From Saccoglossus kowalevskii (lineage: Eukaryota > Hemichordata > Enteropneusta > Harrimaniidae): a DNA stretch of 26,320 bases. A model generated the notes under the pieces. That model had not been told where the DNA came from. It was given only the letters and a program-made list of their open reading frames with translations, and did not search any database. This document shows, piece after piece, positions 2,124 to 25,932 of the stretch. Position numbers and translations under genes: made by a program. Position 1 is the first letter of the stretch, and each line of letters starts with the position of its first letter. The stretch is from contig NW_003140814.1 of assembly GCF_000003605.2 (NCBI RefSeq), positions 30,065-56,384 of the forward strand. The letters run 5' to 3'.

Positions 2124-4590
2124 CATTACAACGCGTGTACACTGAATATATTGTTCGTTTACACAATCATAAATAAACAATAAATGTTCCCGATTTTGAG
2201 AACGTTCAGACATTATATTACTAAAGGATGTGTCCGAATAGAATTCGTTATCGAAAAAAATGGGAAATCAATATAATAACAATATTTTATAATTTGTTTA
2301 ATGCTGTGGTCGATAATCGCTTTGTTGCGCGACTTCTCGTGCCTGGTGCGGTACGACGAATGTAACACTTTAACATCCGTTATACCCCAATAGTATTAGA
2401 TTCGACAAATCATAGCCAATGTTCAAGCTAAACTCTGGATAAAAAAAATCATCTTTCCGAGCATTGCATGCTGGGATCTCACATAACGTTTATGGTGAAT
2501 ATACCCACGTGACACGCACCTTGTGTTTTACCATTTCATTAAATTACAACTTTTAAAGCCGCTTTCCAAATAACTGTTGCGTTCTTTTATTTAAAACTAT
2601 TAATTATTAATCGAAGATTTAATGGTTTATATCATGCATGTTCAAGGTTTCACGACATTGGAGCTGCTATGTATACTAGTGCAATGATTTTCTATCAAGA
2701 TACTAACATTCCACTGAGTGGTTTTCTCAGTCCCGGTGACAATATTTATTTATTTTTTTATTTTTTGAGTTGTTTTTATTCTTGACACATACACTCAATA
2801 CTTATTTTACGTTTTTGACACTAAATTCGGGTTTCGAAAGTGCCAAACGTGCACTCAGACAAGTATGTACATAATGTGACGCGCGACTAAAAATGTGTGT
2901 ATTACTTTCTAATAACTATGACTCCATCATGTATAAATATTCTACTGCTAAAAGTTAGATAATAACTGTAACTTTGATCCAATACTCGCGAAATTGTCAA
3001 CAGGTGGCGCCCTTGCGAGTTGAGGTGCGCTCTATACAGACCAAAGAGGCACTTTTTCTTCTTACAAGTATACAATGTTACTACAGTAACGGCGATGTAT
3101 ATTGCTAAATATATAAATATACGCGCCTAAACTGAATGTTTTGATTGTTGTTAGTGCCATGGCTTCAGTTTCCCACGCAATTTGCCTAAATAATAAATAA
3201 ATACAGTTGTTCATTTTCTCAACAAAATACAAAAGGTATACATTTGTCGGCGTTACTCTGAATAACCCTCACATTTGTAATGACACTCGTCTCATTTACG
3301 ATGATTGGGATCACCGTGTTTTCTGAAAATTCATGGATTAGAATTAAGAAAACTTCTAAATTCAGTGACAATGGTTTGTATGAGCACGATATTAGATTAA
3401 AAATATGCCGGTTATATCTAGATATTTAATTGGAATACTGATTTTTAATTCAAACAAGCAATACAGTGATTCATTTTTAATATTTTTGGTAAACAACGGG
3501 ATTTGTATAATCTAACACCACGTGGTGTATTGATATATCTCCAAACTTCTAACTTTAGTTATTGTAGCAATTCTGCAATTGCGACACCCGCACACAACAA
3601 AACAAACACTATTTCGAAAATGTGGTATTAATGTGATAGTTTTTCCAATACAAAATATCCGTTTTTGGTGCGTGCTCAACAATCAAAATACCGAAAATAC
3701 ACAGAATTATAACAAACATTATAATTTAAACAATATGTAGAGAGACTCTACCAGTACCACGGTTATTTGCTTAAAAACTTTGTCTATGGGTTTGTGAAAT
3801 GTGTACGGCAATTTGATTGGCCGAAACCTCCGTTAAATCCCTGCAGTCTGTGGTCTGTGTCAAACATTGTCACGTGATTGTCACGGCACGCAGACCATTC
3901 GCGTTCGTTATTTACATGCCATAACCATCATGTGACCATGATTTCATTTTTACATAGATATTGAGACAACTTGAAACAATGCAATCACTTTTTATAAGAA
4001 ATAATTGTCAAATTATCAATGACAGACACTATCTTGATGGGCGTATTTACTCTTTGCTCATATCGAAAAGAAGATATCTTCAAGTTGCCATATGCGTGGT
4101 CACCTAAACCGAAGACGAAAATATAAGCAAAATGATGAAACACCATACATAGATTCCTTGTAGACAAAGATAAATACTATTTAACATAAAATGTCATTTT
4201 CTCTGTGGGAAATTTGGCTAATTTTATTAAAATATAGTTTCTAACTTCTAAATATCCGAATGAATGAATGAATGAATGAATGAATAAATGAATAAATAAA
4301 TACCTAAATACAGATATGTGACTTTTAAGGATTATATGAAAAAAAATATTTCAGTCAAAATAAAAATTAACCAAAATAAAAAAAATAAAATAGTTTTAAT
4401 TTTCCATAAATTCATCATAAGTCTGAAAAGTCGGATAACATTTTTCAGCGCGTTTTTGGTAATGTAATAGCTTCGGCGACCCTTCCAGAAAATGTCATTG
4501 CATGGCAACCATATCTCGTTTACCGGTATGTTAATGCTAAAATGCTAAACTAAAATTAAAATATGCGAGTGCGTTGGTGGTCAATAACTA
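2124..4590. other. CpG-rich non-coding 5' flank
   Basis: No gene was recognised on either strand. CpG is frequent here, unlike the region after 5.5 kb. Promoter-like words occur: GCATGCTGGG at 2466-2475 (ZNF143/STAF-like core), CACGTG at 2506-2511 and 3871-3876, and ATTGGCCGAAAC at 3816 (also at 1701). The stretch may hold a distal or divergent promoter for a gene to the left of the window, but no start or exon can be supported. Confidence 0.4.
4258..4303. repeat. Microsatellite (GAAT)n grading into (AAAT)n
   Basis: Six to seven GAAT units are followed by AAAT variants. Simple repeat, no gene. Confidence 0.9.
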
Positions 4591-8360: not shown

Positions 8361-9801
8361 ATCTATTTGGTAATAAACATTCACTTCCTTGTTTGTTGTG
8401 TTTAGTATGCACCCAAATTCAAAACAACATAAAACTGCATGACAGATTTTATTGTAGTGAAGATGAAAAATATATAAATAATTACCGGTATATTATTGAT
8501 AAATGACAAAATATTTAAGGTTTAGACTTGAAAAGCCTAAGAACTTCATAGCTTTTCGACAACACTAATTTAATAAGGAGAACACAAGGGCTTGAACTTT
8601 AGTATTCTTGGGACAGCCAATTTCAAGATCAAAATTTACAAATTTTCTTATGATGTAAGTTTTTCATTATTTTGCATCAAGGCATTCAAAAAAGACCGCA
8701 AAGCAATTGCCTTGATGGCCCTTGTAATTTTCAGGCACCACAAACACTGTATACGCATGATGTAACAATTATATTGTGCAAGTTAGTATATCTCACAAAA
8801 TTCTTGAATTGACTCACCACTATGAATAGATATACCGGGGGTAGATAAATCATCTAGTATCGTTACAATGACTAGTCTGGTACCAGGTAATAGTCAGCTG
8901 AGTTACAGAACATATATTGCCATGAATTGGTTGCTATGTCACTATGTAAACTATCCTTATATCATTGAGGTTTTATCGTTATTCCCTAGTTACCAATATA
9001 TGACCATTGAACAGCAGAGAACAATACCGTATATATCTATATATATTTGATATTATATATATAGAATATAATGTACGTTTGTCCACATACCTTACCTTAA
9101 AAATATTTTTAAAATCTATGGTTGTTTGATTATTACAACACTTTGTTGTTGTTGAATTGCTAATATAGAAGTAAATTGCAGGATACTATGTCTTCTGGAA
9201 TCATAACTGGCTGGAATGTATTTGAGAATGTTATGGCTATAAATTTACCTATTAATATCTTTAATACATTGGTAAACCCATGGACCCTACAATCTACAAT
9301 CACCCTACACAAGGATTTATGAAATCTAAATAGCATAAACACTACAATCAAAAGTTTATGATGAATTTGCTTAAACATACCACTGCAGTGTGAACTTTTT
9401 ATTCAGTCAATAATTGTTGATAATGAACATGCTTCTCTTCATAGCAATCTTCACAATCATGTAGAGATAGTCGTCCGATCTTAGTATGATCACAATATCA
9501 ATAATGGTGTTAAATTCAATGTAAACTTTGGCGGTAGTCTTGGCATGTGAACTGTGCCTCAGGTAAGCCTACCTTACAAACTCTTTTGTATTGTTGGTAA
9601 ATTTTTGTTTGAAACGTTTTAAAAAGTTGAGTACCGGTAATACATGTGTATTGACATCTGTGGTATTCACAAGATAATCAATTAACATAATCTTAACATC
9701 ACTGAGCAGTGGATTCAGTTGTGAATGAGTTTTCAGCATTTTAGGGTGTCATCAAGTCACTGAGTCGCACATGGATACGCTGTTAGATAATCAAAATTGA
9801 C

Positions 9802-10180: not shown

Positions 10181-11652
10181 GTGTAATTTGCAAGTGCCTT
10201 ATTTTTCAGATTGAATTTTTTGCCAACAATAAAACTTAAAATATATTGCTGCCAGATGATGCACACTGACTGTTAATAAATAAGCCTAACAGATGGCAAA
10301 AATTTGGGTTGACAATATACCGGTATTTCTGTCATTTGTGTCCTTTTTATTGACATCTTTAACAAGGCAAAATAAAAGACGTTTTACCAATTTACCAATA
10401 CCTAATTAATAATGACTTCAACATACAGATTCTTTAGTTAGAATGGAAATATTAGTGTTGTATCTAAGGACCTTGAATCAGAGTACTACTGTACATTGAT
10501 ATCAGTAAGGCATCTGGGCGTGAGAATGAAGGTGGTAGGGGAAAAAATAGAGTGGTTGTTTAAAAAACTTGTATACCGGTAAATGTATTTATTTCCTTTC
10601 TTAAAATACATGTATTGGAGGTACCTACATGTATTATAAAATTAAAATAAAGGGAATACAGGAGCTCAATGCAGACGGACTATTATTGCTACAAATGCAG
10701 TGCGCGTAGGGCCCAGTGCACAAACAAATACCAGTTCTGAATGGTTTTGATAATAAATAATGATCTGGCTTGTTTCGGTATTCATGTCTGTTTTCATGTT
10801 GCCATTTATTACTGAACAATTATGGCAGTTTTGATACTCCTGTTTAATTTTCAAACTCTTTATTTTTTAAATCCCCTTATACCTGGTAGGTACAATGCAT
10901 AATCCACTAACACATACCCCCAGTAATGTATGACAGGGTAATTTACACCAATATAAGCAGTCTAATAAAAATGATTCATGTAATTCTATTGTACCATTTT
11001 TTTTAGAACTGAGTTATCGTCACCGATGCTAAATAATAAACGAATTGCATAAAATAGTAGTAAAAAGTGGTTCACAAAAATTTATTAATAATGATGCCTT
11101 GTCATTAAATTCTATATAATTATTTAGCGCAAAATATTCATGAAATATAATATAATTTAAATGGGTATAATTTAATGTATTTGTATTGTTATGTGACCTG
11201 CCACTGTCACATTGTGTACAAGTACAGGTGTGTACCTTGATCCTTTGTATGCTGTGCTAGTAGCAACCGCGTTATGAGGGAATTCTGTTGTTTTCTTAGG
11301 ACATGTACCTGCCTACATACCTATGTATCTATGCACATTTCTTAACAAAGAACCTCTCCTGCATTACTCATACAGATTTATTCAAATACATCTGAAAAAA
11401 TTCAACAGTAGCTCAGGACACCCAGTATCTGCTACCCCGGTAATACTTGGAACGAAACACTGTAGGGATGTCATGACGAAATTATTGGTTTACAAAGTTG
11501 TTTGGATTATTATAAAATACTTTTAAGCTTAGATGTTTGATTTACATTTGTATATAAAGAATTTTACAAAAAAAATAGGTTTTTTGATTTATATGAAATT
11601 TGTTATAAGCTTATGTGTTCATTTCATGTAAAGAATGTTCTTAAGCAAGAGC

Positions 11653-11942
11653 ATCATGGAAAAGGTGTATGGTTTAGGGACAGTCTTGCATTGTCACAGA
11701 ACCATGGAAAAGGTGTATGGTTTAGGGACAGTCTTGCATTGTCACAGAACCATGGAAAAGGTGTATGGTTTAGGGACAGTCTTGCATTGTCACAGAACCA
11801 TGGAAAAGGTGTATGGTTTAGGGACAGTCTTGCATTGTCACAGAACCATGGAAAAGGTGTATGGTTTAGGGACAGTCTTGAATTGTCACAGAACCATGGA
11901 AAAGGTGTATGGTTTAGGGACAGTCTTGCATTGTCACAGAAC
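11653..11942. repeat. 48-bp minisatellite, six near-identical copies
   Basis: ATGGAAAAGGTG recurs at 11656, 11704, 11752, 11800, 11848 and 11896, exactly 48 bp apart. The only difference noticed is GAATTG for GCATTG in copy five. Because 48 is a multiple of three, two forward frames (11613-11978 and 11635-11991) stay open and appear to encode 16-residue repeats. This is a by-product of the period: there is no splice context, no homology, and the array lies within intron 1. The near identity suggests recent expansion and probably variable copy number. Confidence 0.95.
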
Positions 11943-13358
11943 CTCAGGAAATTTAATTTGGGGGGGTGGGGCAGCTGATTTTATTTGTTGAACTTCAATT
12001 CAGTGTATTCACTAGTCAGTGAATATCATAAAAATGTACAAAATAGAAGGCACAGCATAACACCAAAACATCACAGAAAACACACTGCACAAACATTTTA
12101 CTGCAATATAAATCAATCAATGTCTACAATGTAGCAAAAGTTTTTGCACTATTAACGTTTTGTTTAGGGAAGTGGGAAGGTCCAGATTTAAACAAAAAAC
12201 TATGTTCTTTTATAGATATGTTTCGTTGACAATATTTACTTTATTATTTTAATTGAGATATATGTGGGTAGATGTTGTCCCATAGTTGACTAAATATAAA
12301 TACCAAGCAACAAACAGTATCTATATCAAAAATAATTTTTAATAAATAATATTTCTTTAATAAAATTTCAATGAAAAGCTTGTATTTTTGTGTTGTCTTT
12401 TGATAGTGTGCTTTTATGCTGGCTACTCATACTAGATAAAACCACAGCTTTGTACGCTTTTTATTGTGTACACTATTGTTATTTAAGCTTCTGATGCTGT
12501 GAATTAAATAGAACTAAATAGCATGACCTCTATAATAATTGAAATCAGGACCCATTGCTATATATACTAGATCATTCTATTGTAGAAATGAGTGCTGACA
12601 TGGATTGGTGGTCACACCTCGTACCACAGTTAAAATGGCTGTTTTTCCACTTTGTCTAAACAAATTACCTGATGACCTGTCCTGTGTGGCTAGTTTTTAA
12701 AGTTTCACTCTGCTAATAATACAACATATATATTTATGATTTTGTTTAAATATTCCATGCTCAAAAAGAGATATATGTATATATGCTGGATTTATCACTT
12801 GTTGGCTTAAAAAGAAGGTAACAAAATCAAATATTTGCGCTTAGGTAAATGTTCGTCATTCATTGATCCATGGATGTACTAAGAACATCCATGATTGATC
12901 ATAGAAAACATCATGCACGTACATTGCAGCTAATGTGTCCAACTTTAAAGCATCAAGGAGGTGGTATACAACGTTCTTATGAACACGTAAAACTCCTACT
13001 TACAGCCACAAATACTGGGCCAAAGAGCAGCCTAACCTAGTTTACAAATGTAGTTCCATGGTGTAGTATGTAGGGTTAATTAGCATACAGATGAAAAAAC
13101 TTTTCTACATTTCAAATAAAAAGTTTAATGACCGTGCATAACAACGATCGTTGTCTTGGTTGTTATTGTTTTTGTGGATTTTTAAATATATGGGGTTCTG
13201 ATTCCGTTGACATTAATTGACACTAGTGACTTACAGGTGTAATCTTTGGAAAATGTCAGTGTGCCTTAGATAGACTGTGCATCTTGCATAAAGGAGGAAG
13301 TGTACCATTATATGCAGTGGGACTGCAGTTTCATATTTATTTTGTCGATTCTTTGCAG

Positions 13359-13466: not shown

Positions 13467-14116
13467 ATGGCGTCTGCAAGTGACTATGAACAGCTAAGGG
13501 CCACCTTACAAAGGGGCTTAGACAATTTGGTATTGTCCAACAACCACAAACAGTTACCACTAAGGAAACAAACACACAGACCTATGTTGAAGTACAATAC
13601 AAGTGTTTCCAGTAGTAGTCCTCAACCATTGATGGTGAACGGTAACGATGATGTCAGTACCGATATCTCTCCTAAAGCCACACGTGTGCACTCAAGACCG
13701 GCGAGTGCTAAAGATATTAGAAGTCCCAAGCCTCCTCTAATTATACGATCTTCCAACTCAACTGGCAATATCAGTAATATAAATAGCAGTAATCCTGTAC
13801 ATAGTAAATCTTTTATGAAGCCAAAGACCCCAGCGCATGTTCTTTCAAGAACCAGTGCTGACAGAGAAAGGACTAGATACACAACAAATAATAAACCTCT
13901 AAGTGCCAAGAAAACAAGTAAACAGGTCACCATGCAATTGCCAAATAAGACCCCAAACTTGAAGAATTCTAAACCCACCTATAAAGGCCATGAGAACGGT
14001 GTTAGACAGAATGCTGATGGCGCATGTAAGAAAGGACGAGTTAGAGACAAGTCTTATGACAATGAAGAATGGAGTGACGTAGACGAACATGAAGAGTTTG
14101 ATGAAGACTTAACCAG
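13428..14116 (+). CDS. TTLL4 coding exon 1: disordered N-terminal tail
   Basis: Residues 1-229 plus two bases of codon 230. The sequence is rich in Ser, Asn, Thr, Lys and Arg, lacks predicted domains or membrane segments, and turns acidic at the end (EEWSDVDEHEEFDEDL). A long, poorly conserved tail before the catalytic core is normal for TTLL4. Donor AG/GTAAGA at 14117. The open frame on the opposite strand (13622-13978) is a shadow. Confidence 0.85.
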
Positions 14117-17100
14117 GTAAGATAAGGTGCACTTCGTTGGTGGTGTACACGTGTTGAATCTATGTGTGATTGACACAGCATTCGTTATTAATTTATACAT
14201 GTTTGTTCCAGTGAGCGTTCTCCCGGTGATGGCTCATCGTTTATCTATGAAGATGATGGTGATGAAGACGATGGGATAGATGGATTAGATGATGATTTAC
14301 CAGATGGGGGTGAGTTATCTAATTAGTAATCATGTCTCTTAATCTTATTCATTTTATTTCCCCTTAAGATAGCACATGGTGAACTATAGTTGTCATTTGC
14401 ATAATTTGCCTACTCCCTAAAAAAATTATCCCTGGAGCTGAGTGCCCTGGGTGCTTAGTTGCAGAAGCATGGCATTATTAATAAGTGGCTAAACAATAAA
14501 AAATGCTTTACTCATATATGGTAGTTACAAAATAGTTGCTCCATGAGCAGTTTGGCTTGAAGTTTATTCAACCTAGAGGTTTCATTACTCCTACCACATG
14601 TCTAGACCACAGATTGTGATATATGTTGCATTATACAATGCCTATAGTTGTTCCTACTCAACTGAAGTGTTTGTGGAGTAGTGATCACCTCCGTCTCTGT
14701 CTCATTATTATTTTTAGTCACAAATGTGTTTATAATCCATAGAAGCAATGCAATGCTGTGCCTACCTGATTTATGTGAATACCACAGATTAAGTTGATTC
14801 ACAGGATTTTTCAACGTTGTGAATTTTCTGACACTTTATATGAAAACTATATCTAGAGTGAAAATGAAATGACGTGGTTATGCATAGTGAAACAAATATT
14901 TCAAATCATAAAGAATATGCATAGAATTTGAATACAAGTGAATGTACCGGTAATATACTTCTTTACCACTTTCTATCCACTTCTGATGTTAAATAGTGCT
15001 CTCGAGTTTTTAACACACATGACAGTAGCAATATTTTGTATCAAATTCTGTCTACAATTATTCGTTTTAGTATGAGTCAACAGTGTCTGAACTTGTTTGG
15101 TTCACTGTCAATCTGTTTTTTGAGAAACAATAATATGCATAAAATGCCCTTTTTTCAGCTGTTTCCATAGACCGCAATGGAAACACATTTCCTTGATAAA
15201 AACTTACTAAAAATATTGTCAATTTTTTAATACTTCTAGACATCATAAAGTACCTTGTATATCCGGTATATCTTTTTTTCCACCATATGTCGCTCACTGG
15301 GCAAAATTTTGAGATAAATCCGATTCATAGGGAACATTGGTAAACATTCTTAAATAGACAAAACATGCTATTTTTAATCGATTTTGCACATCAATTTCCT
15401 CTGAGTACAGTGACACATATTTTTATTACATTTTCTTTATCCTCATGACATTAAATATCTGATACGTAAAAATGAAGAAAATGGTCGCTTCAATTCGCTT
15501 TGAAATGGACACCATGCTCTTTGACTATTGCTCAATCACTCTCCATTTGATGCCAACTTCAAATCCTCTTGACTAATTTGGCCATAAATGTTGACACAAC
15601 TCGCATAGATATATGTTCATCATAATTTCATTACAATATGTATATTCAGCAGTTATAATAACTGTTTTTTGCCTGGAAATCCTTGCAAATTAATTTTCCA
15701 TGACACTTGAAATGAATCTTCTTCATCTGCTTTCCCATTCTTCTTTCAGACGATTCTGATGGGTACTCTACAGCGAGCACCTTGTCACGGAATTCCTCGG
15801 CCCTGCTCTATTCCGGTCGTCATTCAGCAAAAAAATTTACAGCCGAAAAACTAGACTCTATAGCCAACGAAATTGACAGAACATCTATTGGATCGCGAGC
15901 GTCAATGAGATTATATCAACCAGTTGTTGTAGATGGAGATGAGATACAACCAGCTCTCACACCAAGTCTTTTTAGTAATACACCTCCAACTATTAATTTT
16001 ATAACTCAATATGAAAAGGGTAAGTATGGTAGTCATTATTTCTATCTAGCACCCTCTTGTGGCAAAAAAGAGAAATTACATTTCGGATTATGGCATTGCG
16101 GTTCATAATATTGTGGTGTTATGCTCATATGTCGCAATATTAAAGTATTATAGGAATTCACATCACAGTGTTGTTTGAATATAACATACTTATTTACTCT
16201 GTTACATGTAGTAGCTCATATAAATGTCTATGGTGTGTCTATGTTCAAAATAAGTCATACTTCAATAATAAGGCATATAATGAATGACTTTTTTGGTTTA
16301 TGTACACATCTACCGGTAATAGTGATGCACCTGAAATACTATATCAGCTACTGAATCAAAAATTCACAATTTAAGGCTGTATTGTCAGCAACATTTGGTT
16401 TGAAACCTTTGACATGTTAATACGCATACGGTATTTGCTATATATCCACATCATGGACAGCCTGACATCACCAGTTCATAGTTGAACATCTCTGAACAGT
16501 TCCTCCTAGGATTTGATTGTGATCAGCATTTAGGTAGTCATTGAATGGCATGTGGGATTCTCTGTTCAACGGTCAAGGATGCACTATATTATAAAACTAA
16601 TATTTGAAATATTTTTCTTTAACCTTTTCACCACTAGACTTCCTTGGCCAAATTTGCCTCCACTTTTTTCTTATGTTCTTCAATATTTCTGGAAATGGGT
16701 CAATGTTCAGTTTTTACTCAAAAAATTTGGCTATTTTTGTTCCAATCTTTTGAAAGAAATTGCAGACTGTATACTGGACTATTCTATGATTTTGTTATGA
16801 AAAGAGGGAACTGGTAGTGAAAAGAATAAGATTAGTTTGAGATGTAGATTGGACACTTGAATTCTTTCTATTAGAGATCCCCCTTTCAATTTTATAGCAC
16901 AACTATTTTACTCATGTTATTCCTGCGTCTGGATATCATACATTAATGCTTCATAGGTTAGTTGTGTTTGGCACTCACCCAAAATCAGAATTCAAACTGC
17001 AATGCATGATGGGATTTATTGTAGTGAAGACAATAAATTACCTAAATTTCTCAATATGCCAAATTTCGATCAATATAATGATTCCCCAAAATTTAAAGGA

Positions 17101-20100
17101 CTTTATTGTTGACAGTAACATTTTAGTAAGTACAATTTGTTTGGGTAGAACAAATTCTGTTGTATCTGAAGCAGTAATATATGTGCAGCACACTATTAGA
17201 TAATGAATAGCGTCTATTTATAGTGGTACCCTCAACCAGCATAAACATTACTATTTTGTATCACCAGGACTTTGATGCTAGGATTTGTCTCAGGGATTTA
17301 AAGACCATCCACCTGTGTGTTACATAGTGATATTAATAAAATTGAAAAGAAACAACAATTACGTGGGACTTGTTTATTATTGCTAGAATTTAAATTTTAC
17401 TATAAACAGAAACTCAGTGCATAACTTATTCAGAATTTCTTCTGTTCAAGGCTTAAGGAACAATTTTCATAGATTGCTTATTTATTCCTCGAACAGCAAA
17501 CAAATTCCAATAAATATTTAACATTTACAAATAAGAACACTTCCACATGTATTTTCTATTTGTACAAACCAGTTAAACTTTTTAATATAATAGTAACCAT
17601 TCAAATCAAATTATCCATATTTTATATGGTTCACCTACGTGTATGTTTGCTGGGTAAATATGATTCTAATTGTTATTATTTCAGTTGCGCAGTTACCATG
17701 GGAGCTACGTAAATTATTGAAATGGCGAATGAGTCCAATAACGCCGCATGTTGTGAAGAACTGCATTGCAAGGTCAGGATTCAGAGCAACAAAAAGTAAG
17801 TTTGAAGTACCGGTAGTTACCTATTATTCTGTAGAATTCTTTACAGCGACAATGTGAGATAATATTAATAAGGTTATCACCAAATATAACTTGTGTGTAT
17901 AACTAGCTGATACAAGTGATGTCATGGACTAGTATTATTTACAAAGTATATCAACCAGCTTTATAAACAGGTGATAACTTGTTTATCACATGACCAACTC
18001 AGAGTGTCTAAACAACAAATAGATCGTGATTTTATGGAACTACATTTTTAGCTCCGCTGTTGACTTTGTCGAGCGGAGCTTATCATATGAGTGATTGTCT
18101 GTCTTCAGTGTCCGTCGTCGTCCGTGTCAATGTTTTACGTTTTCAACTTCTTCTTGAAAACTACAAGCCTGAATGCTTTGATACTTGGTGTATATGTACC
18201 TCTCTTAGATTTGTTCATTACATGATGATATCTTCAATTTTCTAATTTTGGTGAATATTTTTGTCATTTTTGGAAAAAAGTGATATTTTCGACTTCTTGT
18301 TAAAAACCGCGAGGCCAATTACTTTGATATTACATATATAGGTACTACATGTGGACCTCTCTCAAATTTGTTCATTTTGTAATGATATCTTTAATTCTCT
18401 AATTTTGTAATTTTTGGTAAAAAGTGATATTTTCGACTTCTCGTTAAAAACCGCAAGTCCAATTGCTTTGATATTACATATATAGGTACTACATGTGGAC
18501 CTCTCTCAGATTTGTTCATTTCATGATGATATCTTTAATTTTCCAATTTTGGTGAATATTTTTGTCATTTTTTCCCATTGCATTGATACTGTGCATATTG
18601 TTCATTTTCTAATGATATCTTCTGTTCTTTATTTGAAATGTGCATTACTAACAGCGGAGCTATCTCAGCCGAGAGGCTGCTTGTTTTTTTAAATTTTTTT
18701 TTCACAAATGCAATAAAATGATCAAATTGAGAATTGTTAGCAGTTTACAGAGTCCTGTGGAATTAAGGATTCCGTAACAAGGGAGTTAATAACTATTGTT
18801 GTTTATTTCCTATGTAATCATATTAATACTTGTGGAGCACTTCAAATATGGAATTTTTTTTTTTTTTATTGCTGTTGTACTATTCAGAAATATTATTCTC
18901 ATTTTTCCCTTCTGACAGCAGCATTGGATGATATTGAGAACTGTAACCCCTATTATGATGAGGGTAACTTAATGTTTTATGGTTTGCATGGGTTTCACTT
19001 TGTTCTTATTTGTAACCCAATCATCACAGCTCCCCTCTCAGGGCACATCCTGCAAATTTTGATACCACACCTCCTACACTTTTTCCCGATCAATGTCACA
19101 TGAACACGTATCCCAATTTCACCTGTCACAAAAATTTGTTTCCCATTTTGTGGTTTAACCAGAGTGTCATTTTATCGATTAGAGACGAATGTGCTGTTAT
19201 TTTGATCTTTTCTTTTATTTACAGAGTCACATGACTGGTTGGGGTACTGGGGCAAACACATGAAAGCCATCGGGTTCAAAGCAGTACGGGAGTATCAAAA
19301 GGTGAGATTGACATAGAGGGCGCTGCCTATCAAGCTGGCTTCTTGGATCTTGCAAGTAATACTGTATGCAGTTCTAAATGTGTGCAATGTTGGCGTTCTC
19401 CTGTTTAAAATTGGCCTCAATGTTTTTATGAAAATTAAACTTGCATGCTAGAATCTAACAACTCATATTATGTGCTGAAGGGATACTGTTGTTAACACAT
19501 ACTGCAGCGAGCATAAACATAATGGAGCAAAATTTGGTACTAGACTTTGTTTATACCTACGTAGTACTGTGTGATCTTCAGACAGTCGTTTCTAGTTTTC
19601 TTAACTTTGCCATTTGTCTTAATCTATCTTTTCCTAGGTCAACCATTTTCCAGGTTCCTTTCAAATAGGCAGGAAAGATCGTCTGTGGCGAAACTTGTCC
19701 AGAATGCAGGTTCATTTTGGTAAGAAGGAATTTGGTTTCTTTCCACAAACGTTTGTGCTGCCGTATGATATAAAATTGTTGAAAAGGGCCTGGGAAGATG
19801 GTGGTACGAAGCAGAAGTGGATTCTAAAACCGGTAAGACATTGATTTTTTTTCTACCCGTCTATGTATATGAGATAGAATAACCAGAACTGTATTTGCAC
19901 TATTTAGTAGTTGTATGTACATGACATGTGTCTGTGGTGAAAATCATTTATCAAAATCGTAACATCATTTATTTTTTACTGGCGTTTATTTTCACTCCAC
20001 TGAGTTCTATCACATGTTCTTGTGGATTCAATTCAGCAGATTTTACTTACTATAAAATACTTTATTTTCGCTTGGAATTAATTTTCGCTATTTTTGTTGA

Positions 20101-23100
20101 AGGAATATTTCAGTGAAAATAAAATCCAGCGAATATGCCTTTTTTCCTATATTTTACATTCAACTTGTTAAAAATCAGTGAAAATAAATTCCATACAAAA
20201 CACCCAAAAAGTCCTTTCAGCAAATTTTATTCCAGCTAAAATAAAGTATTCTACAGTATCAGTGTAAATAGGAAATTAAAATGAATAATTAATGCATTTA
20301 CAGTAGGTCATATTTTTAATGATCTATAATACAATTCATGCAACTGTTAGCATCTGTAAGTCCCATCTCAATACAAACCTGCCAAGCAACCAATGGCTAC
20401 AGATAGTTTGAAATGCACGAGCATCACATTTCAAAATATCACCAAACCAATATTGCTCTACTGCCAACATAACACTTTTAATTGATGGTAAACCAAAATA
20501 TTCATATTTATGCTATAACTGAATACACACAATTAGCCAGCACTGCATTCCCAGTTTTTTTTATTTATTGGGTTGAAAGTGTGAGGTACTGTAAAAATGA
20601 TTAATTTTTTGCGAGTGAAAAATTCTCGTCAGTCTACAATTTTGTGTCAGTGAAAATATTTTTGTTGACTCATGACTGAAGTTTTGTTTTCGTGAATACC
20701 ATAAAATTATCAATTAATGCCAAATTCTAACCACAAAAAATATGCAGTTCATAGTATACACCCTGTTTGCTGTTCAACTCATACTTAATGTTCGTATCGT
20801 GTATGTTTATTTGTACAGCCAGCATCAGCACGTGGTATTGGTATTAAAGTCATACATAAATGGAGTCAAATACCAAGACGTAGACCAGTGTTAGTGCAGA
20901 GATACCTCTCAAAACCATTTCTTATTAATGGTAGTAAGTTTGATTTACGTATCTATGTATACGTAACCAACTATGATCCCCTACGTGTCTATGTCTTTGA
21001 AGATGGTTTGGTGAGATTTGCAACAATGAAGTAAGTTGGATTGTTTTATGTTGATCATTGCACCCTTAAAGTTTTATGTTTAATATTAGACTCTGTTATT
21101 GTAAGTCAAAAGAAACCCATAAAAACTGGGTTTCTTTCTCCTCCAGTGATGACACACAAATCCACAGAATGTCTAAAAAAATACTATCTCCTGAATTAAA
21201 AAATAATATATATTAAACACAAAGACAAAATTAATATCTAAACAATTCCCTCATAATATCTTGTCATGAAGTACTTTTAAATTACTTTATGTTTTATTTT
21301 TGTATTAACCATAATAATTAAAATCAAAGTTATTTTGTTCTCGTCCTCTGAAAAAATTATTGTAAGTTAAAGTTGTATTGTCAGTAAAACTTAGTGGAAT
21401 GCCCTTTCAATTTTAATTATTAAATCAAATCTAAAAGTTATGGTGTACACAAGTTGTACTGATCGAAACATTGCACCGTTTATCGGCGAAGTTGTCTTCT
21501 CAACAATAAATCCTGTCATGCACACTGTTTTGAATTTTGCTTCAGGTGCCCACTAAATATAACTTACTCAGGAAGCATGTGATGTTTTAGTGTTTGCACA
21601 GACACATTGGTGACATGAGTATTAAAATAAAATAGTTGTTCTATAAATGAAAATAGAGAGGCCTTAAGGCTATACAGGAAACTACTCAAGCACCTAGTAT
21701 GTACATCTCGTACTAATCTCAATGAAAAATGCTTCCCATCAAATAATTATATTGTAATATAGTGATTAGTCTGTCTTCTAACAATGAATCCTCTATGTGA
21801 TTCAGTGAGTGGATAAACTAAGACTGTAAAAAATCAATCTTGTGAATCCCGTAACTGTTGTACCGGTATATATTACCGGGATAATATGCATATTACTTAT
21901 TATTATATATCTGTGACCGCAACACCATAAGTTACAGCGTGCTGTAATTTTGCCGTATTTTACGGGGTATTTTAATCCTACCATATAGGGAAATGCGAAT
22001 TCCGAACATGAATTGATTACACACATAAGCGTCCTCTAATAATAAAAACAAACATGGCTGCCACCTGGGTTTGGCCGGACTCCGTACAAAGAAGTTTGCT
22101 GATTTTGTTACTTTGAGGTATCCTTGTAATAACCTCATATTATTAAATGCTGACAATACAACTTCAATAGTATCATGATATGTATAGAGGTGCATTCCTG
22201 GTGGTTTCCTGATAGACCAAATCCTGTGCTAGCATTCCTGTGTAAGGAGTTCTTATGAAAGTACACAGGAACTGGACATTTATGTGTATCTGTGTATCTT
22301 GAAGGCCTCCAAACTAATTGAATTAATAAACATTGTCTCTGAATTAATGAATAATAATAATATCTTTTTGTTTTTCTCTAGGTACTCCTCTTCTATGAAA
22401 AGCTTAAGTAATAAATTCATGCATCTCACCAATTATAGTATAAATAAGAAGAACTCAGAATTTACTCCAAACGATGATGAAACTGTTTGTCAAGGACATA
22501 AATGGTATGTAATAATGGAATGGATTGAGTATGTAAGTATGTATGCAAGTTAATAAGTACATATGTGAGTGAATATGTATGTAAGTATGTATGTGAGTGA
22601 ATAAGTATGTAAATATGTACGTGAGTGAATAGGTACATGTATGTAAATATGTATGCGAGTGAATGTAAGTATGTATGTGAGTGAATAAGTATGTACATAT
22701 GTATGAGAGTGAGTGTAAGTATGTATTATGTGAATAAGCATGTAAATATGTACGCAAGTGAATAGGTACATGTATGTAAATATGTATGTGACTGAATGTA
22801 AGTACCGGTATGTATGTGAGTGAATAAGTATGTAAATATGTATGCGAGTGAATGTAAGTATGTATTTGAGTGAATAAGTATGTAAATATGTATGTGAGTG
22901 AATGTAAGTATGTATGTGAGTAAATATGTATGTGAGTGAATAAGTATGTAAATATGTATGTGAGTGAATGTAAGTATGTATGTGAGTAAATAAGTATGTA
23001 TGTGAATGAATAAGTATGTAAATATGTATGCGAGTGAATGTAAGTATGTATGTAAGTAGATAAGTATGTAAGTATGTTTGCGAGTGAATAAGTCTGTAAG

Positions 23101-25932
23101 TCAAATTACTGTATATGTTGCATGTACATGTATTATACTACATTTGTTTGGACTTAAACGACATTCCATGATTATTGACACATCTCTACATTTGAGTAGA
23201 TATCCTACATGTGTACATGTTACTATCAGTAGATGTAATTATCAGTTGATATTACTATTCTTAATTTTCTTACCAGGTCATTGAAAGCTTTATGGGGATA
23301 TATGCGCAAGAATGATATTGATTCGAATAAAGTATGGGATAGCATTAAAGATATTGTCATCAAAACTATCATAAGGTAACACTAAAAGTTTATTGCTGTG
23401 AAAAAAGTGTATACTACTAGATTACACTGTAAAAAAGACCTTAAAATAGATTGCTTTTTTTTATGAGTGTGATGAGATTTAGTATTGTATAAGGAATTAA
23501 TATTCCTATTGTGTTCTGTTGAATTCCTGTCAGTCAATTTTAGCTGAAGGCAGTGATTTGTCTTTTTATAAGGAGCTTTTATTTCTGTTGTGTTTAAAAT
23601 AGTACTCATTTCTATCTCTATCTTGGCTCCACTCAATGTTTTTGTCATTATTTACTGATTTTGCTAAGTTTAGATTTGTTCAGTTGATACCCGGCTCAAA
23701 CCCATGCTGTAGATCCTTTTCAGTAACTTCAACCATGACAACTTATTACTAACTATGTAGGTAGACATGTGTTATTGTATTTTAGCTCAAAAAGAATTGT
23801 GATTGCACTTCACTTTTTTTTTTTCCATTTATCGTTTGAATTTGGGTTTACAAGTAGTCTTGGTTGCCATGGTATGATCACATGCGATCTCCTTATCTTA
23901 CAGTTACTGTAAAATACTTTATTTTCACTGAAAAGACTTTTGGGGTGTTTTGTATGGAATTTATTTTCACTGATTTTTGACAAGTTGAATAAAAAATATA
24001 GGAAAAAAGGTATATTTGTGAAATTTTATTTTCAATGAATCATTCCTTTAGTGAAAATTCATTCCAAGCAAAAAATAAAGTATTTTACAGTAGTTATAAA
24101 TTCGCCCAATTTGTTGAAATCAACTTATTGTTTTATATCAGTTCTGAGGCAGCAGTTAACAGCTTGGTGAAATCTAATGTTCGAAGGCGTTACTGTTGTC
24201 ATGAATTATTCGGCTTTGATGTCATGTTAGACGACAACCTAAAACCATGGATTATTGAAGTCAATATCTCTCCTAGGTAAGACGTGTTTGAAATGACGTG
24301 TTCACATGTCATTTTGTTTTAGCAACCCGATGTGGCATGTGCTAGACCAGAAAGTGGCCATGATGCTTATAATATTGGTTCTCCATGTGCTTCCAATGAA
24401 TGTATTTCTTTGACATGCTTTGGTCAAAATTAACACAAAGTCAAAACATGAAATAATGGTATACTTAGGCATATGAGTTTGTTTTTGATTCAATGTGACT
24501 GGACTGACTGGCATTAATTTTTCTTTCAACAAACCACAATATACCTCAAAATGTCATTATCTGCAAATTTAATTCAAACATGGACATTTTGATAACATTT
24601 TCACACGAAATGCACATAATATCTATTTACTGATTCAGAAATAATCTGCTTGAGTTTGTATTTTGCTCATTCCGTTTTTTTTTTCTCTCACATTATTGTT
24701 CCAACAGCTTACACTCCAATTCTTCATTAGATGTTAATATCAAAGGTCAAATGATCAAAGATTTACTCAACTTAGCTGGTTTCCAACTGCCTGATAAGAG
24801 AGACATCTATCCACATGTGCCACCTACAAGTTCTGCGATAAGGTACACATCCAAACCTACTTAAATATTGCCACTTGAAATCTTCAGGAAATCTTCAATA
24901 TGAACGACGTCAGCTGGTGTGTTAAACTAAACCTCTTCTTTAGTTCCTGTCCTATTACTTTGTTTCTGAAAAAGGTCCCAGAATCTTGTTCAGTGTTGTT
25001 GGTTCATGTCTAGTATATACACTACAGTACATGGTGTAACTTGAACACAAATTTTAAGAAATCTTCACCAGTCATGTAAATAATTCCCTGATATTCAATG
25101 GTATATTTAACAATTCTTTTCAGCATCATACATACAATACTAGGAATAAAAATAATTTAAACCAATCTATATCCTAAAAAAAGCATATTTTTACTATTTT
25201 TGGCCCAGAACTATGGAATGTACTCAGTGAATCAATCAATCAATCAATCAAGATCAAACAAAGTATGCATTTAGGTCAGCTTACAAAACCTTCTTCTTAA
25301 AATCAGTATCCTACTCTTCTGATTTAGTGTCCAGGCTACTCGGTTCACAATTATGTTTCTAGTAGGGTGGGCGCTTAGCCGAGCACCCACTCAAAAAAAT
25401 GGCCAAAAGACAATTTACATTCACCTTGTGGTAGATTTGGGGGAATAGTACGCCTTTTATTTAGATTCTTTTTTGTCAGCCTTTATTTTGTTATTTCCAA
25501 CTTTTTTTTTGAAATACAAGACCTTGATGTTTTTTTCACTTTCCCCCACTCGACAGTTTGGATGATAAGAATCTTTCAATGTAACCATTTAAACACATGT
25601 GCCTTGATAATACAGCAGCATTTAACTTGAATGTATGAGTGAAAATAAATTGAATAGTTTTTAAACCTACCGGTAATAATAAAACCAGCATCATCAATAT
25701 CAAATCATTACAAAATATTGTACTATTGTGTTTTCTTTTTTACTTTCTATACAATATATATGTATTTAAACATGAATCATATCACCCGTTATAAGTTTGT
25801 AAATATTCTACTTTCTTCCATAACAGCACGGAATATAGGTGTGTATTTACAGACAAGAAACTGTGGAATGTTCCAGTCAGTAAAGATGAGCGTGCCAAAC
25901 ATGCTTTCTATATTCAGAAACACCTTGATGAT
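13428..25932 (+). CDS. Tubulin polyglutamylase TTLL4 (spliced, 3' incomplete)
   Basis: TTLL4 ligates glutamate onto gamma-carboxyls of tubulin tail glutamates, starting side chains. In vertebrates it also modifies nucleosome assembly proteins. Twelve exons join in one frame: 13428-14116, 14212-14309, 15750-16019, 17685-17795, 19225-19301, 19638-19832, 20819-21030, 22382-22504, 23277-23375, 24142-24276, 24708-24842 and 25827-25932. Numbering from the ATG at 13428 gives 750 residues. Landmarks are PWELRKLLKW (357-366), DWLGYWG (393-399), NHFPGS then GRKDRLWRN (417-434), WILKPPASARGIGI (476-489), SKFDLRIYV (519-527), HLTNYSINKKN (565-575), HELFGFDVMLD (645-655) and IIEVNISPS (662-670). The ATP-grasp acid/amide pair is E664 and N666. 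The order and wording match TTLL4 better than TTLL5 or TTL. The ATG at 13467 (GCCATGGCG, residue 14) has the stronger start context and is the likelier start. Human TTLL4 is about 1,200 residues, so several hundred C-terminal residues lie past the window. Confidence 0.93.
14212..14309 (+). CDS. TTLL4 coding exon 2: acidic segment
   Basis: Acceptor TTTGTTCCAG; donor GTGAGT at 14310. It encodes residues 230-262, an Asp/Glu run (YEDDGDEDDGIDGLDDDLPD) continuing the acidic tract of exon 1. The intron before it is only 95 nt. Vertebrate TTLL4 also has an acidic stretch N-terminal to the core, so the composition seems conserved although the sequence is not. Confidence 0.85.
14310..15749 (+). other. 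Intron, nothing but one TACCGGTA
   Basis: GTGAGT ... TTCTTTCAG. AT-rich sequence with no recognised repeat or second gene. TACCGGTA stands at 14945 and a variant (TA-TCCGG-TA) at 15260-15268. Confidence 0.6.
15750..16019 (+). CDS. TTLL4 coding exon 3: linker to the catalytic core
   Basis: 270 nt, phase 1 at both ends. Residues 263-352 begin DDSDGYSTASTLSRN and end with LTPSLFSNTPPTINF and a short charged tail. The PALxxSLFxNxPPTIxF-type segment is characteristic of TTLL4 directly before the PWE..KLL.W segment. Acceptor TTCTTTCAG, donor GTAAGT at 16020. The frame runs on to a stop at about 16108 in the intron if the donor is skipped. Confidence 0.88.
16020..17684 (+). other. Intron with dispersed repeat fragments
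   Basis: Contains TACCGGTA at 16311, the 18-nt dispersed motif at 16371, TA-CGG-TA at 16427 and the ZNF143-like repeat at 16964-17050. Open frames at 16552-16800 and 16946-17203 show no family features and are taken as chance. Acceptor TTATTTCAG. Confidence 0.55.
16964..17050 (+). repeat. Dispersed repeat with ZNF143-like word, copy 2
   Basis: GTTGTGTTTGGC, then GCAATGCATGATGGGATTTA at 16999-17018 followed by TTGTAGT, then GAAGACAATAAATTAC. It shares the order of blocks with 10113-10180. The central word plus TGTAGT resembles the long form of the ZNF143/STAF element on the minus strand (TTCCCAGCATGC preceded by ACTACA). Confidence 0.5.
17685..17795 (+). CDS. TTLL4 coding exon 4: start of the conserved core
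   Basis: Residues 353-389, VAQLPWELRKLLKWRMSPIT then a segment ending GFRATK. The PWE.RKLL.W.MS..TP..VK pattern is the conserved N-terminal edge of the TTLL4 core. Phase 1 at both ends; donor GTAAGT at 17796. A TACCGGTA lies only 12 nt behind the donor. Confidence 0.92.
18050..18690. mobile_element. Non-autonomous element with 144-bp internal repeats
   Basis: The left edge AGCTCCGCTGTT (18050-18061) is mirrored by AACAGCGGAGCT (18650-18661). The left edge also forms a hairpin, GCTCCGCT - 13 nt - AGCGGAGC. A CGTCGTC-rich patch follows (18113-18125). The interior has tandem units: TGATATTTTCGACTTCT at 18281 and 18425 gives a 144-bp period, and a third, diverged unit precedes them. Each unit carries ATATTACATATATAGGTACT- and CCTCTCTCA-type words. 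After the right terminus come GCCGAGAGGCTGC and long T runs. The frame at 18060-18245 has no protein features. Superfamily unknown. Confidence 0.6.
18919..18963 (+). CDS. Candidate 45-nt cassette exon of TTLL4
   Basis: A strong pyrimidine tract and CTTCTGACAG precede 18919, and GTAACT follows at 18964. The 45 nt have no stop and fit phase 1 on both sides, so inclusion would keep the frame and replace one Lys codon with TALDDIENCNPYYDEE. The insert is acidic and aromatic and would sit directly before SHDWLGYWG. The acceptor is a tandem CAGCAG, so inclusion could also give 42 nt (one Ala fewer). TTLL4 relatives I know lack an insert here, so constitutive use is unlikely. The donor is only fair. 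Confidence 0.4.
19225..19301 (+). CDS. TTLL4 coding exon 5: DWLGYWG segment
   Basis: 77 nt; residues 390-415, KSHDWLGYWGKHMKAIGFKA then VREYQK. D-W-x-G-x-W-G is a TTLL signature at the N-terminal lobe of the core. The exon starts in phase 1 and ends in phase 0 with AAG/GTGAGA. Confidence 0.92.
19638..19832 (+). CDS. TTLL4 coding exon 6: substrate/ATP lobe
   Basis: 195 nt, phase 0; residues 416-480. VNHFPGSFQIGRKDRLWRN (416-434) is followed by a KKEFGFFPQTFVLP segment and ends in KWILKP. The lysine of the ILKP motif belongs to the nucleotide-binding lobe of the ATP-grasp fold. Acceptor TTTTCCTAG, donor CCG/GTAAGA. The exon is cleanly conserved with no break. Confidence 0.95.
20048..20258. mobile_element. 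MITE-like repeat, family 1, copy b
   Basis: Ends TACTATAAAATACTTTATTT (left) and AATAAAGTATTCTACAGTA (right). Interior blocks CAGTGAAAATAAAATCCAGC, TTCCTATATTTTACATTCAA and CCATACAAAACACCC match, in reverse complement, the copy at 23905-24092 and, directly, the copy at 9802-9994. No ORF. Confidence 0.85.
20587..20720. repeat. Diverged MITE-related fragment
   Basis: It begins TACTGTAAAAATGATTAATT and contains GCGAGTGAAAAATT, CAGTGAAAATATTTT and TTTTCGTGAATACC words like those of the families nearby. No clear inverted right end was found. Confidence 0.35.
20819..21030 (+). CDS. TTLL4 coding exon 7: ATP-grasp centre
   Basis: 212 nt; residues 481-550 plus two bases. PASARGIGIKVIHKW (the glycine-containing nucleotide loop), RRRPVLVQRYLSKPFLI, then SKFDLRIYVYV (R524 in the DLR motif) and DGLVRFATM. 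All hallmark residues of the fold are present. Acceptor TTTGTACAG, donor GTAAGT at 21031. Confidence 0.95.
21031..22381 (+). other. Intron with a putative 0.8-kb inverted-end element
   Basis: Flanks are AT-rich. The middle part, 21367-22167, is listed separately. The frame from an ATG at 22284 is open into coding exon 8 in the right frame, probably by chance. Confidence 0.5.
21367..22167. mobile_element. Putative element with inverted 18-nt ends
   Basis: TTAAAGTTGTATTGTCAG at 21367-21384 pairs with the inverted TTGAAGTTGTATTGTCAG at 22150-22167 (one mismatch). Between them, about 21.84-22.09 kb is unusually CpG-rich for this gene body (about 12 CpG in 250 nt). It contains TACCGGTA (21861), TA-CCGGGA-TA (21874) and AACATGGCTGCC. 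The different CpG level suggests inserted DNA or an unmethylated patch. No target-site duplication was recognised and no ORF looks real. Confidence 0.35.
22382..22504 (+). CDS. TTLL4 coding exon 8: HLTNYSINKKN motif
   Basis: 123 nt; residues 551-591 plus two bases. SMKSLSNKFMHLTNYSINKK (555-574) is among the most conserved TTLL4 segments; the HLTNYS asparagine lies in the nucleotide site. It ends with DDETVCQGHKW. Acceptor TTTTTCTCTAG. The donor is TG/GTATGT at 22505, followed at once by a repeat rich in donor-like words. Confidence 0.94.
22527..23097. repeat. GTAAGTATG/GTGAGTGAATAA satellite, about 50-bp units
   Basis: Degenerate tetranucleotide-like DNA (GTAT, GTAA, GTGA). Its better-preserved part shows a 50-bp unit such as GTGAGTGAATAAGTATGTAA then ATATGTATGCGAGTGAATGT then AAGTATGTAT. 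One unit carries an inserted CCGGTA (22803-22810) and two carry TACATGTA (22634 and 22767). The His/Tyr/Thr-rich frames on the minus strand (for example 22550-23104) are products of the repeat. Confidence 0.95.
23277..23375 (+). CDS. TTLL4 coding exon 9: helical segment
   Basis: 99 nt; residues 592-624. WSLKALWGYMRKNDIDSNKV then WDSIKDIVIKTII, the amphipathic segment between the HLTNYS and HELFGFD motifs. Acceptor TTTTCTTACCAG, donor AG/GTAACA at 23376. Length and register match the family. Confidence 0.93.
23376..24141 (+). other. Intron with MITE copy next to the acceptor
   Basis: AT-rich. MITE family 1 copy c occupies 23905-24092 and ends only 49 nt before the next exon, so the branch-point region lies at or just behind the element. 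Nothing else was recognised. Confidence 0.6.
23905..24092. mobile_element. MITE-like repeat, family 1, copy c (inverted)
   Basis: Ends TACTGTAAAATACTTTATTT and AATAAAGTATTTTACAGTA are perfect inverses over 19 bases. The interior (GGGGTGTTTTGTATGGAATT, AGTTGAATAAAAAATATAGG) matches the reverse complement of 20048-20258, so it is inserted in the opposite direction. It is the best-preserved pair of termini in the window. Confidence 0.88.
24142..24276 (+). CDS. TTLL4 coding exon 10: HELFGFDVMLD and EVN
   Basis: 135 nt; residues 625-669 plus two bases. RRRYCCHELFGFDVMLDDNL, then KPWIIEVNISP. D655, E664 and N666 correspond to the metal/ATP ligands of the ATP-grasp fold. Acceptor TATATCAG is short of pyrimidines (TTGTTTTATATCAG). 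The upstream frame is open from an ATG at 24035 inside the MITE. Donor AG/GTAAGA at 24277. Confidence 0.95.
24277..24707 (+). other. Intron, nothing recognised
   Basis: 431 nt, GTAAGA ... CCAACAG, with a T9 run before the acceptor. Confidence 0.7.
24708..24842 (+). CDS. TTLL4 coding exon 11: end of the catalytic core
   Basis: 135 nt; residues 670-714 plus two bases. SLHSNSSLDVNIKGQMIKDL, then LNLAGFQLPDKRDIYPHVPP. SLHS.S.LD..IKGQM..DLLNLAGF closes the TTL domain in TTLL4. Donor AG/GTACAC at 24843 is weaker than the others. Confidence 0.94.
25229..25251. repeat. Microsatellite (AATC)n
   Basis: Five to six AATC units in an intron. Confidence 0.9.
25367..25390. repeat. Imperfect hairpin GTGGGCGCT...AGCACCCAC
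   Basis: Nine-base arms with one mismatch around TAGCCG. It resembles in style the hairpin at the left edge of the 18050 element (CGAG in the loop side, GC-rich arms) and may be the terminus of another non-autonomous repeat running toward about 25500. The other end was not found. Confidence 0.35.
25827..25932 (+). CDS. TTLL4 coding exon 12: post-catalytic segment
   Basis: 106 nt; residues 715-750, STEYRCVFTDKKLWNVPVSK then DERAKHAFYIQKHLDD. It joins in frame to exon 11. Lys/Arg-rich with KHAFYIQK, like the KKAYYLTQK segment of vertebrate TTLL4 that follows the core. Ends in phase 0 with GAT/GTAAGT. The following exons are outside the window. Confidence 0.85.

Follow-up and report, generated by a model that had tools for sequence, protein, structure and literature searches.

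The window (the whole stretch of 26,320 nucleotides of Saccoglossus kowalevskii DNA that was analysed) contains exons of a tubulin-tyrosine-ligase (TTL) family gene, recognised by Pfam TTL within 19638-19841, 20789-21031, 22233-22550, and 24002-24277; no match to Rfam was found in the window. Dispersed repeats occupy 15007-15483 and 16610-16834 and together have more than 40 matches listed elsewhere in the genome (70-84% identity), and a second copy (haplotig) of window 14000-18000 was absent among the matches listed (40 of 3,089 candidates scored). A 47-bp tandem array at 1-666 (14 copies, higher-order unit of 188 bp, TGGTACCA in many units) is traversed by open frames on the minus strand, and a 48-bp array at 11655-11943 (six copies, 99% alike) is open in three frames, one of which repeats HGKGVWFRDSLALSQN. 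The palindromic 8-mer TACCGGTA was detected at 11 positions, listed here without strand:

4521..4528, TACCGGTA, no paralogue spanning the word in the stretches read
8483..8490, TACCGGTA, no paralogue spanning the word in the stretches read
9632..9639, TACCGGTA, no paralogue spanning the word in the stretches read
10318..10325, TACCGGTA, no paralogue spanning the word in the stretches read
10574..10581, TACCGGTA, no paralogue spanning the word in the stretches read
14945..14952, TACCGGTA, about 55 bp from the start, near 15007, of a multi-copy repeat
16311..16318, TACCGGTA, outside the dispersed repeats matched elsewhere in the genome (search with window 14000-18000)
17808..17815, TACCGGTA, immediately downstream of AAAAAGTAAGT, which by eye is a likely splice donor of the TTL-family gene
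21861..21868, TACCGGTA, no paralogue spanning the word in the stretches read
22803..22810, TACCGGTA, scar, with CCGGTA inserted at the TA of a satellite unit
25668..25675, TACCGGTA, no paralogue spanning the word in the stretches read

Dinucleotide shuffles of the window contain the word 0.11 times on average and none of 100 reached 11, and Markov models of orders 1, 2, and 3 expect 0.13, 0.22, and 0.80 (orders 4 to 6 expect 3.7, 7.2, and 11, such models being fitted to the word itself). Among palindromic 8-mers, TACCGGTA has the highest excess both in the window and in the other stretches fetched. These other stretches, 155,758 bases partly chosen for containing matches to the word, hold 31 copies against 0.6 expected, and over all stretches read, with the same partial choice, the word reaches about 58 times its expectation. 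The first-pass annotation had spoken of genome-wide words by extrapolation from the window. The whole assembly (572 Mb, part of which reads N) has 11,501 sites, compared with 8,627 for a reversed, CpG-free control word. The 24 one-letter neighbours number 77,452 for TACCGGTA and 135,354 for the control word (by subtraction); genome densities are approximate owing to the N positions. The genome mean would place 0.5 sites in the window, or 0.9 if some 335 Mb are readable (a rough guess), and with 11 sites the window is thus a local cluster.

The flanks of the 11 window sites differ from each other, those of the 42 sites in our first set are mostly unrelated, and little sequence context beyond the TA is seen in them. 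This bears on the possibility that the word spread only by the copying of satellites and other repeats that contain it. Such copying does occur, since a 33-bp satellite (G000 C10:175047-175681, part of it in L068) carries TACCGGTA in many units (GTCTACCGGTAATCCTGTTGCAATGTTTG), so that a scar-like word has been multiplied there by tandem amplification, and the two words in L014 are copies of each other within a 35-bp duplication. As a general account, copying alone is highly improbable given the unrelated flanks, and for the 11 window sites it is, as judged from their surroundings, already contradicted.

The site at 22803 lies in a satellite that preserves the state before the insertion:

about 22528..23101, + strand, irregular tandem array built of roughly 22-bp and 28-bp units (composite 50), pre-insertion state
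22634..22641, no strand, TACATGTA, 6-bp insertion relative to some sister units
22767..22774, no strand, TACATGTA, 6-bp insertion relative to some sister units, flank the same as at 22634

TRF reports periods of 50, 28, 22, and 70 among others for this array. The word at 22803-22810 sits within GTAAGTACCGGTATGTATG (22798-22816), and the alignment with the closest sister segment (161 bp, 89%) has a 6-bp gap at CCGGTA. The proposal from the letters alone that CCGGTA had been inserted here at a TA of the satellite unit therefore holds, and the excision mechanism proposed with it is very likely right for this site. The same proposal counted the two neighbouring TA-CATG-TA units as further cases; they do have the insertion form relative to some sisters, but they share the same flank and probably derive from one event that was then duplicated.

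We looked at 85 TACCGGTA words, 42 from the first set and 43 from small fetched flanks. A paralogue spanning the word was available at eight loci, which comprise five clear insertions at TA, one weak case, one case that looks like a substitution, and one uninformative case. The clear insertions are window 22803, L010 5880 (45-bp alignment, E 2.5e-4), and L065, each of +6, L015 253 with +12 reading TACCGGTACTAGTA, and L001 with +4 at TATA. The weak case (L022 3780) shows a 4-bp gap, L052 is the sole locus at which the word looks like a substitution, and the paralogues at L068 belong to its own 33-bp satellite, hence uninformative. Insertion of CCGGTA at TA is thus seen in several unrelated repeats, including the satellite, L010, L065, and the MITE copies described below, and since exactly these six letters are missing from sister copies of several repeats, we read TACCGGTA as mostly an excision scar. 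The extension of this reading to all TACCGGTA words, as first suggested, is too broad: five loci out of eight comparable ones among 85 words are clear insertions that duplicate a TA relative to an empty site, L052 looks like a substitution, and some words are copies made by the C10 tandem array.

By a scripted rule, most or some paralogues show such a gap at four of five TACCGGTA sites, at three of 16 other TACNNGTA sites, and at 10 of 234 further TANNNNTA sites that do not belong to the TACNNGTA class (Fisher p 3.6e-5 for 4/5 against 10/234, the sites being not fully independent). The one TACCGGTA site scored as gapless is presumably L010 5880, where the gap seen by eye is 6 bp long but has one of its columns outside the word. 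In a census of six-bp insertions, three of 29 duplicate the TA, two of them reading TACCGGTA and one TACATGTA. For TACCAGTA, TACTGGTA, TACTAGTA, and TACATGTA, a paralogue was present at three of 77 sites. Two scar words sharing one TA (TACCGGTACTAGTA, in both orientations) occur at L015 253 and L029 3507, where TACTAGTA is fused with TACCGGTA, as if a scar had been hit a second time.

An abundant MITE family with ends of the CT…AG type (TA-CTGTAAAATACTTTATTTTC) is represented twice in the window and served as a trap for scars:

20048..20258, no strand, MITE copy of the same family as the one at 23905..24092, with ends CTATAAAATACTTTAT / CTGTAGAATACTTTAT
23905..24092, no strand, MITE copy with ends TA-CTGTAAAATACTTTAT…, whose own footprint would be TACTAGTA

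A MITE 22-mer had no match in public viral and prokaryote contigs. A genome-wide search, allowing up to three mismatches, for the MITE end with CCGGTA inserted between ACTTTA and TTTTC returned 15 places compared with 12 for the control, and the nine places that were fetched are four MITE copies and five stretches of other DNA. At this one TA, alignments show TACCGGTA in L071 and TACTGGTA in L079 (+6 each), while L073 has TACCGTTA (+7) and L074 has TACCGGTA, the latter by eye; a fifth copy (L010 4845) carries TACCGTA (+5). The decayed and shortened forms TACTGGTA, TACCGTTA, and TACCGTA are thus insertions at the same MITE TA that carries TACCGGTA. As the CCGG query favours CCGG, we also left the four bases free, which gave 14 places at +6 bp and none for the control. 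Five of the 14 have the form TAC-NN-GTA (TACNNGTA) or are a CpG product of it: one TACCGGTA and one TACTGGTA (L071 and L079, already found by the first query), one TACATGTA, and two TACTAGTA, the last two at a neighbouring TA. TACATGTA and TACTAGTA act like TACCGGTA in being insertions at TA, and TACTAGTA is the expected residue of this MITE's own CT…AG ends, so that in two of the 14 places a scar matches ends that are known. The nine other places comprise five with a common TTTTAA-type variant, which looks like a MITE subfamily, and four with other changes. An exact search for the scar pattern at another TA of the MITE, between GGAATTTA and TTTTC, gave four matches with no scar, which limits the frequency of scars.

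In the search for a filled site at TTTACC of the MITE, no clear case was found among nine new places inspected (20 of 87 listed places fetched), which showed mostly point changes or other DNA. L088 begins as the MITE, continues with TTTACCTTCAATACTATG, and leaves the MITE for other DNA right after TTTACC; it could be a filled site. L083 is a MITE-like copy with a 7-bp insertion (CCCAGTA between TTTA and TTTT) that is perhaps another footprint variant. L092 resembles a TACGGTA scar, but an internal deletion of the MITE fits equally well.

Simple-repeat slippage or templated end-joining might produce TA-NNNN-TA palindromes without any transposon. The window case does lie inside a TATG-rich array and one of the 14 places (C4223) is a plain duplication, but CCGGTA copies no neighbouring sequence and the same six letters stand at unrelated TAs, also outside arrays, which makes this origin very unlikely.

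TACCGGTA is one of several over-represented words of the form TA-NNNN-TA in the stretches read. The words in excess include, besides TACCGGTA itself (42 copies against 0.7 expected), TACATGTA (41 against 8.4), TACCAGTA (23 against 6.2), TACTAGTA (13 against 3.3), TACAAGTA (29 against 12.6), and TACGAGTA (9 against 2.3). TATATATA and TAATAATA are likewise in excess, which we count against the footprint reading, and, apart from a few weaker words, the remaining top words are AT-rich simple repeats. The shortened forms TACCGTA and TACGGTA occur 18 times against 8.4 expected, so that a palindromic residue of both ends with minor length variants is found, TACCGGTA being accompanied by the 5-bp TACCGTA insertion in the MITE. 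Across 182 kb, the two CpG-transition products of TACCGGTA occur 23 times (6.2 expected), whereas the other 22 one-letter variants together show no excess (19 against 21.8 expected). The pooled spectrum of variants is what neutral scars would show under CpG methylation, the latter being assumed. In the window alone, the CpG products show no excess (1 against 0.97 expected).

These variants also bear on the idea that TACCGGTA is a palindrome bound by a protein, for example a CP2/Grainyhead-like factor, and that selection has kept or created such sites in clusters near regulated genes. A palindrome that is locally clustered, with 11 copies around one TTL-family gene, would suit such a site, as would the substitution-like L052 and the window's lack of excess CpG products. 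A site under constraint would be gained and lost by substitution, but apart from L052 we found insertion at TA in most comparable repeats, words located in satellites and MITEs, and an excess of CpG-decayed forms over the stretches read. Sister TAC-NN-GTA palindromes are in excess too, and of the 13 ACCGGT in the window just two lie outside TACCGGTA, with 1.65 expected in all. A selected binding-site palindrome is already disfavoured by these observations, and we regard it as quite unlikely.

We consider it likely that the majority of TACCGGTA words were left as footprints when a Tc1/mariner-type cut-and-paste transposon was excised, and the mechanism put forward in the first-pass annotation probably holds for most of them. 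An element would insert at TA and duplicate it; on excision the transposase would cut inside the 5' ends, leaving a few terminal bases at each flank, and repair would join TA-CC to GG-TA to give TACCGGTA. The source would end either in 5'-CC…GG-3', with a 2-nt stagger that is filled in, or in CCGG, with a self-complementary stagger of 4 nt that anneals, and a mariner-type transposase would be responsible. The scars would be neutral and decay mainly at CpG.

A single element with TACC…GGTA ends had been proposed as a source that would account for the genome-wide words. About 182 kb containing 42 scars yielded no element with CC…GG ends in multiple copies. CC-ended inverted pairs in the same 182 kb have 11-13 of 16 matches and are mostly chance-like, and recurrent TACC-headed words (at least four copies) were rejected as termini, being pieces of satellites or internal repeat pieces. 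When 13 or more of 16 matches and a span below 400 bp are required, a single CC pair is left, alongside 20 pairs for CT, three for CA, and none for six other starts. This CC pair, L008 7011-7173, measures 163 bp and reads TA-CCACAGCTGTC…GACAGCTGTGG-TA with 11-bp perfect inverted ends. Judged by its letters, it is possibly a CC-ended MITE and a candidate source, whose excision with a 2-nt footprint would yield TACCGGTA. The stretches read contain it once, with one weak partial match (L030 681-732, 54 bp, E 0.1), and as a single copy it leaves the strength of the footprint reading unchanged. The claim of one source element thus gains a single-copy candidate, but neither a multi-copy family in the 182 kb nor a clear filled site among the nine places inspected.

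Transposases of the superfamily are present, with at least 150 matches to PF01359 (150 of 208 candidates scored), many of them interrupted by stops, and 27 matches to PF13358, a few of them with open frames near 300 residues; the matches to both have no tie to the CC ends. Four copies of a mariner family were compared at their 3' ends, which read …CCCCTCG-TA in L101 and L103 and are diverged in L100 and L102; over L100-L103 the end reads about TTGAACGCCCCTCG-TA. An end of the form …CTCG-TA would agree with the over-represented TACTCGTA/TACGAGTA, a match that is suggestive only. KolobokP was set aside as a source type, its target being TTAA (PMC9587614).

Many scars and hardly any filled copies in the part read would also be seen if germline TA elements were excised in the soma by programmed elimination, giving a somatic assembly with scars and without elements. 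Against this, the decayed forms at one MITE site imply that scars are inherited and age, several scar types coexist, one candidate element (L008) is present, and the search for the element covered a tiny part of the genome; programmed elimination is extremely unlikely. One family may have left many thousands of near-identical scars while its own copies became very rare or absent, the word surviving as the chief trace of an element that is extinct or confined to the germline and whose scars far outnumber the remaining elements. We offer this last step tentatively and think it rather doubtful.

Should the majority of the 11,501 sites be scars, the count of one 8-mer would be a direct, datable record of transposon excision in the germline of an animal, a process usually studied one locus at a time. 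A scar origin would account for an over-represented palindrome that could be mistaken for a regulatory motif, and the spectrum of scars (CCGG, CATG, CTAG) would reveal active TA-transposon families, including ones hardly visible today. Among the papers listed, no literature on TACCGGTA as such a word was found by title.

HIP1 in cyanobacteria is a highly iterated short palindrome that is strongly over-represented. It resembles TACCGGTA in being one over-represented short palindrome, whereas TACCGGTA would be made by insertion at TA and decays at CpG. The footprint of Tc1 in C. elegans has the form TACATGTA. The +4 scar is its typical excision footprint and makes up 78% in the soma (as quoted in PMC13148408), whereas the scar described here is CCGG rather than CATG, has a source that is a candidate only, and forms inherited genome-wide traces. 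The mechanism of Tc1/mariner footprints is already known (PMC1925063, PMC2170065, PMC13148408), and what is unusual here is how abundant and how sharp a single scar word is. Tc1/mariner footprints of 2-4 bp are described in PMC7913693, in which the zebrafish Tc1/mariner element ZB itself leaves 0-3 bp, unlike the present scars. ISY100, the subject of work on Tc1/mariner cleavage (PMC2170065), is a bacterial element studied in vitro and differs in this from the present case. Stowaway MITE footprints in Triticeae (PMC1925063) consist of TA plus 1-4 bp fragments of the terminal inverted repeats, including TACT…AGTA, and lie in an intron; they trace one locus across species, whereas here one word stands at about 58 times its expectation in stretches partly chosen for matches.
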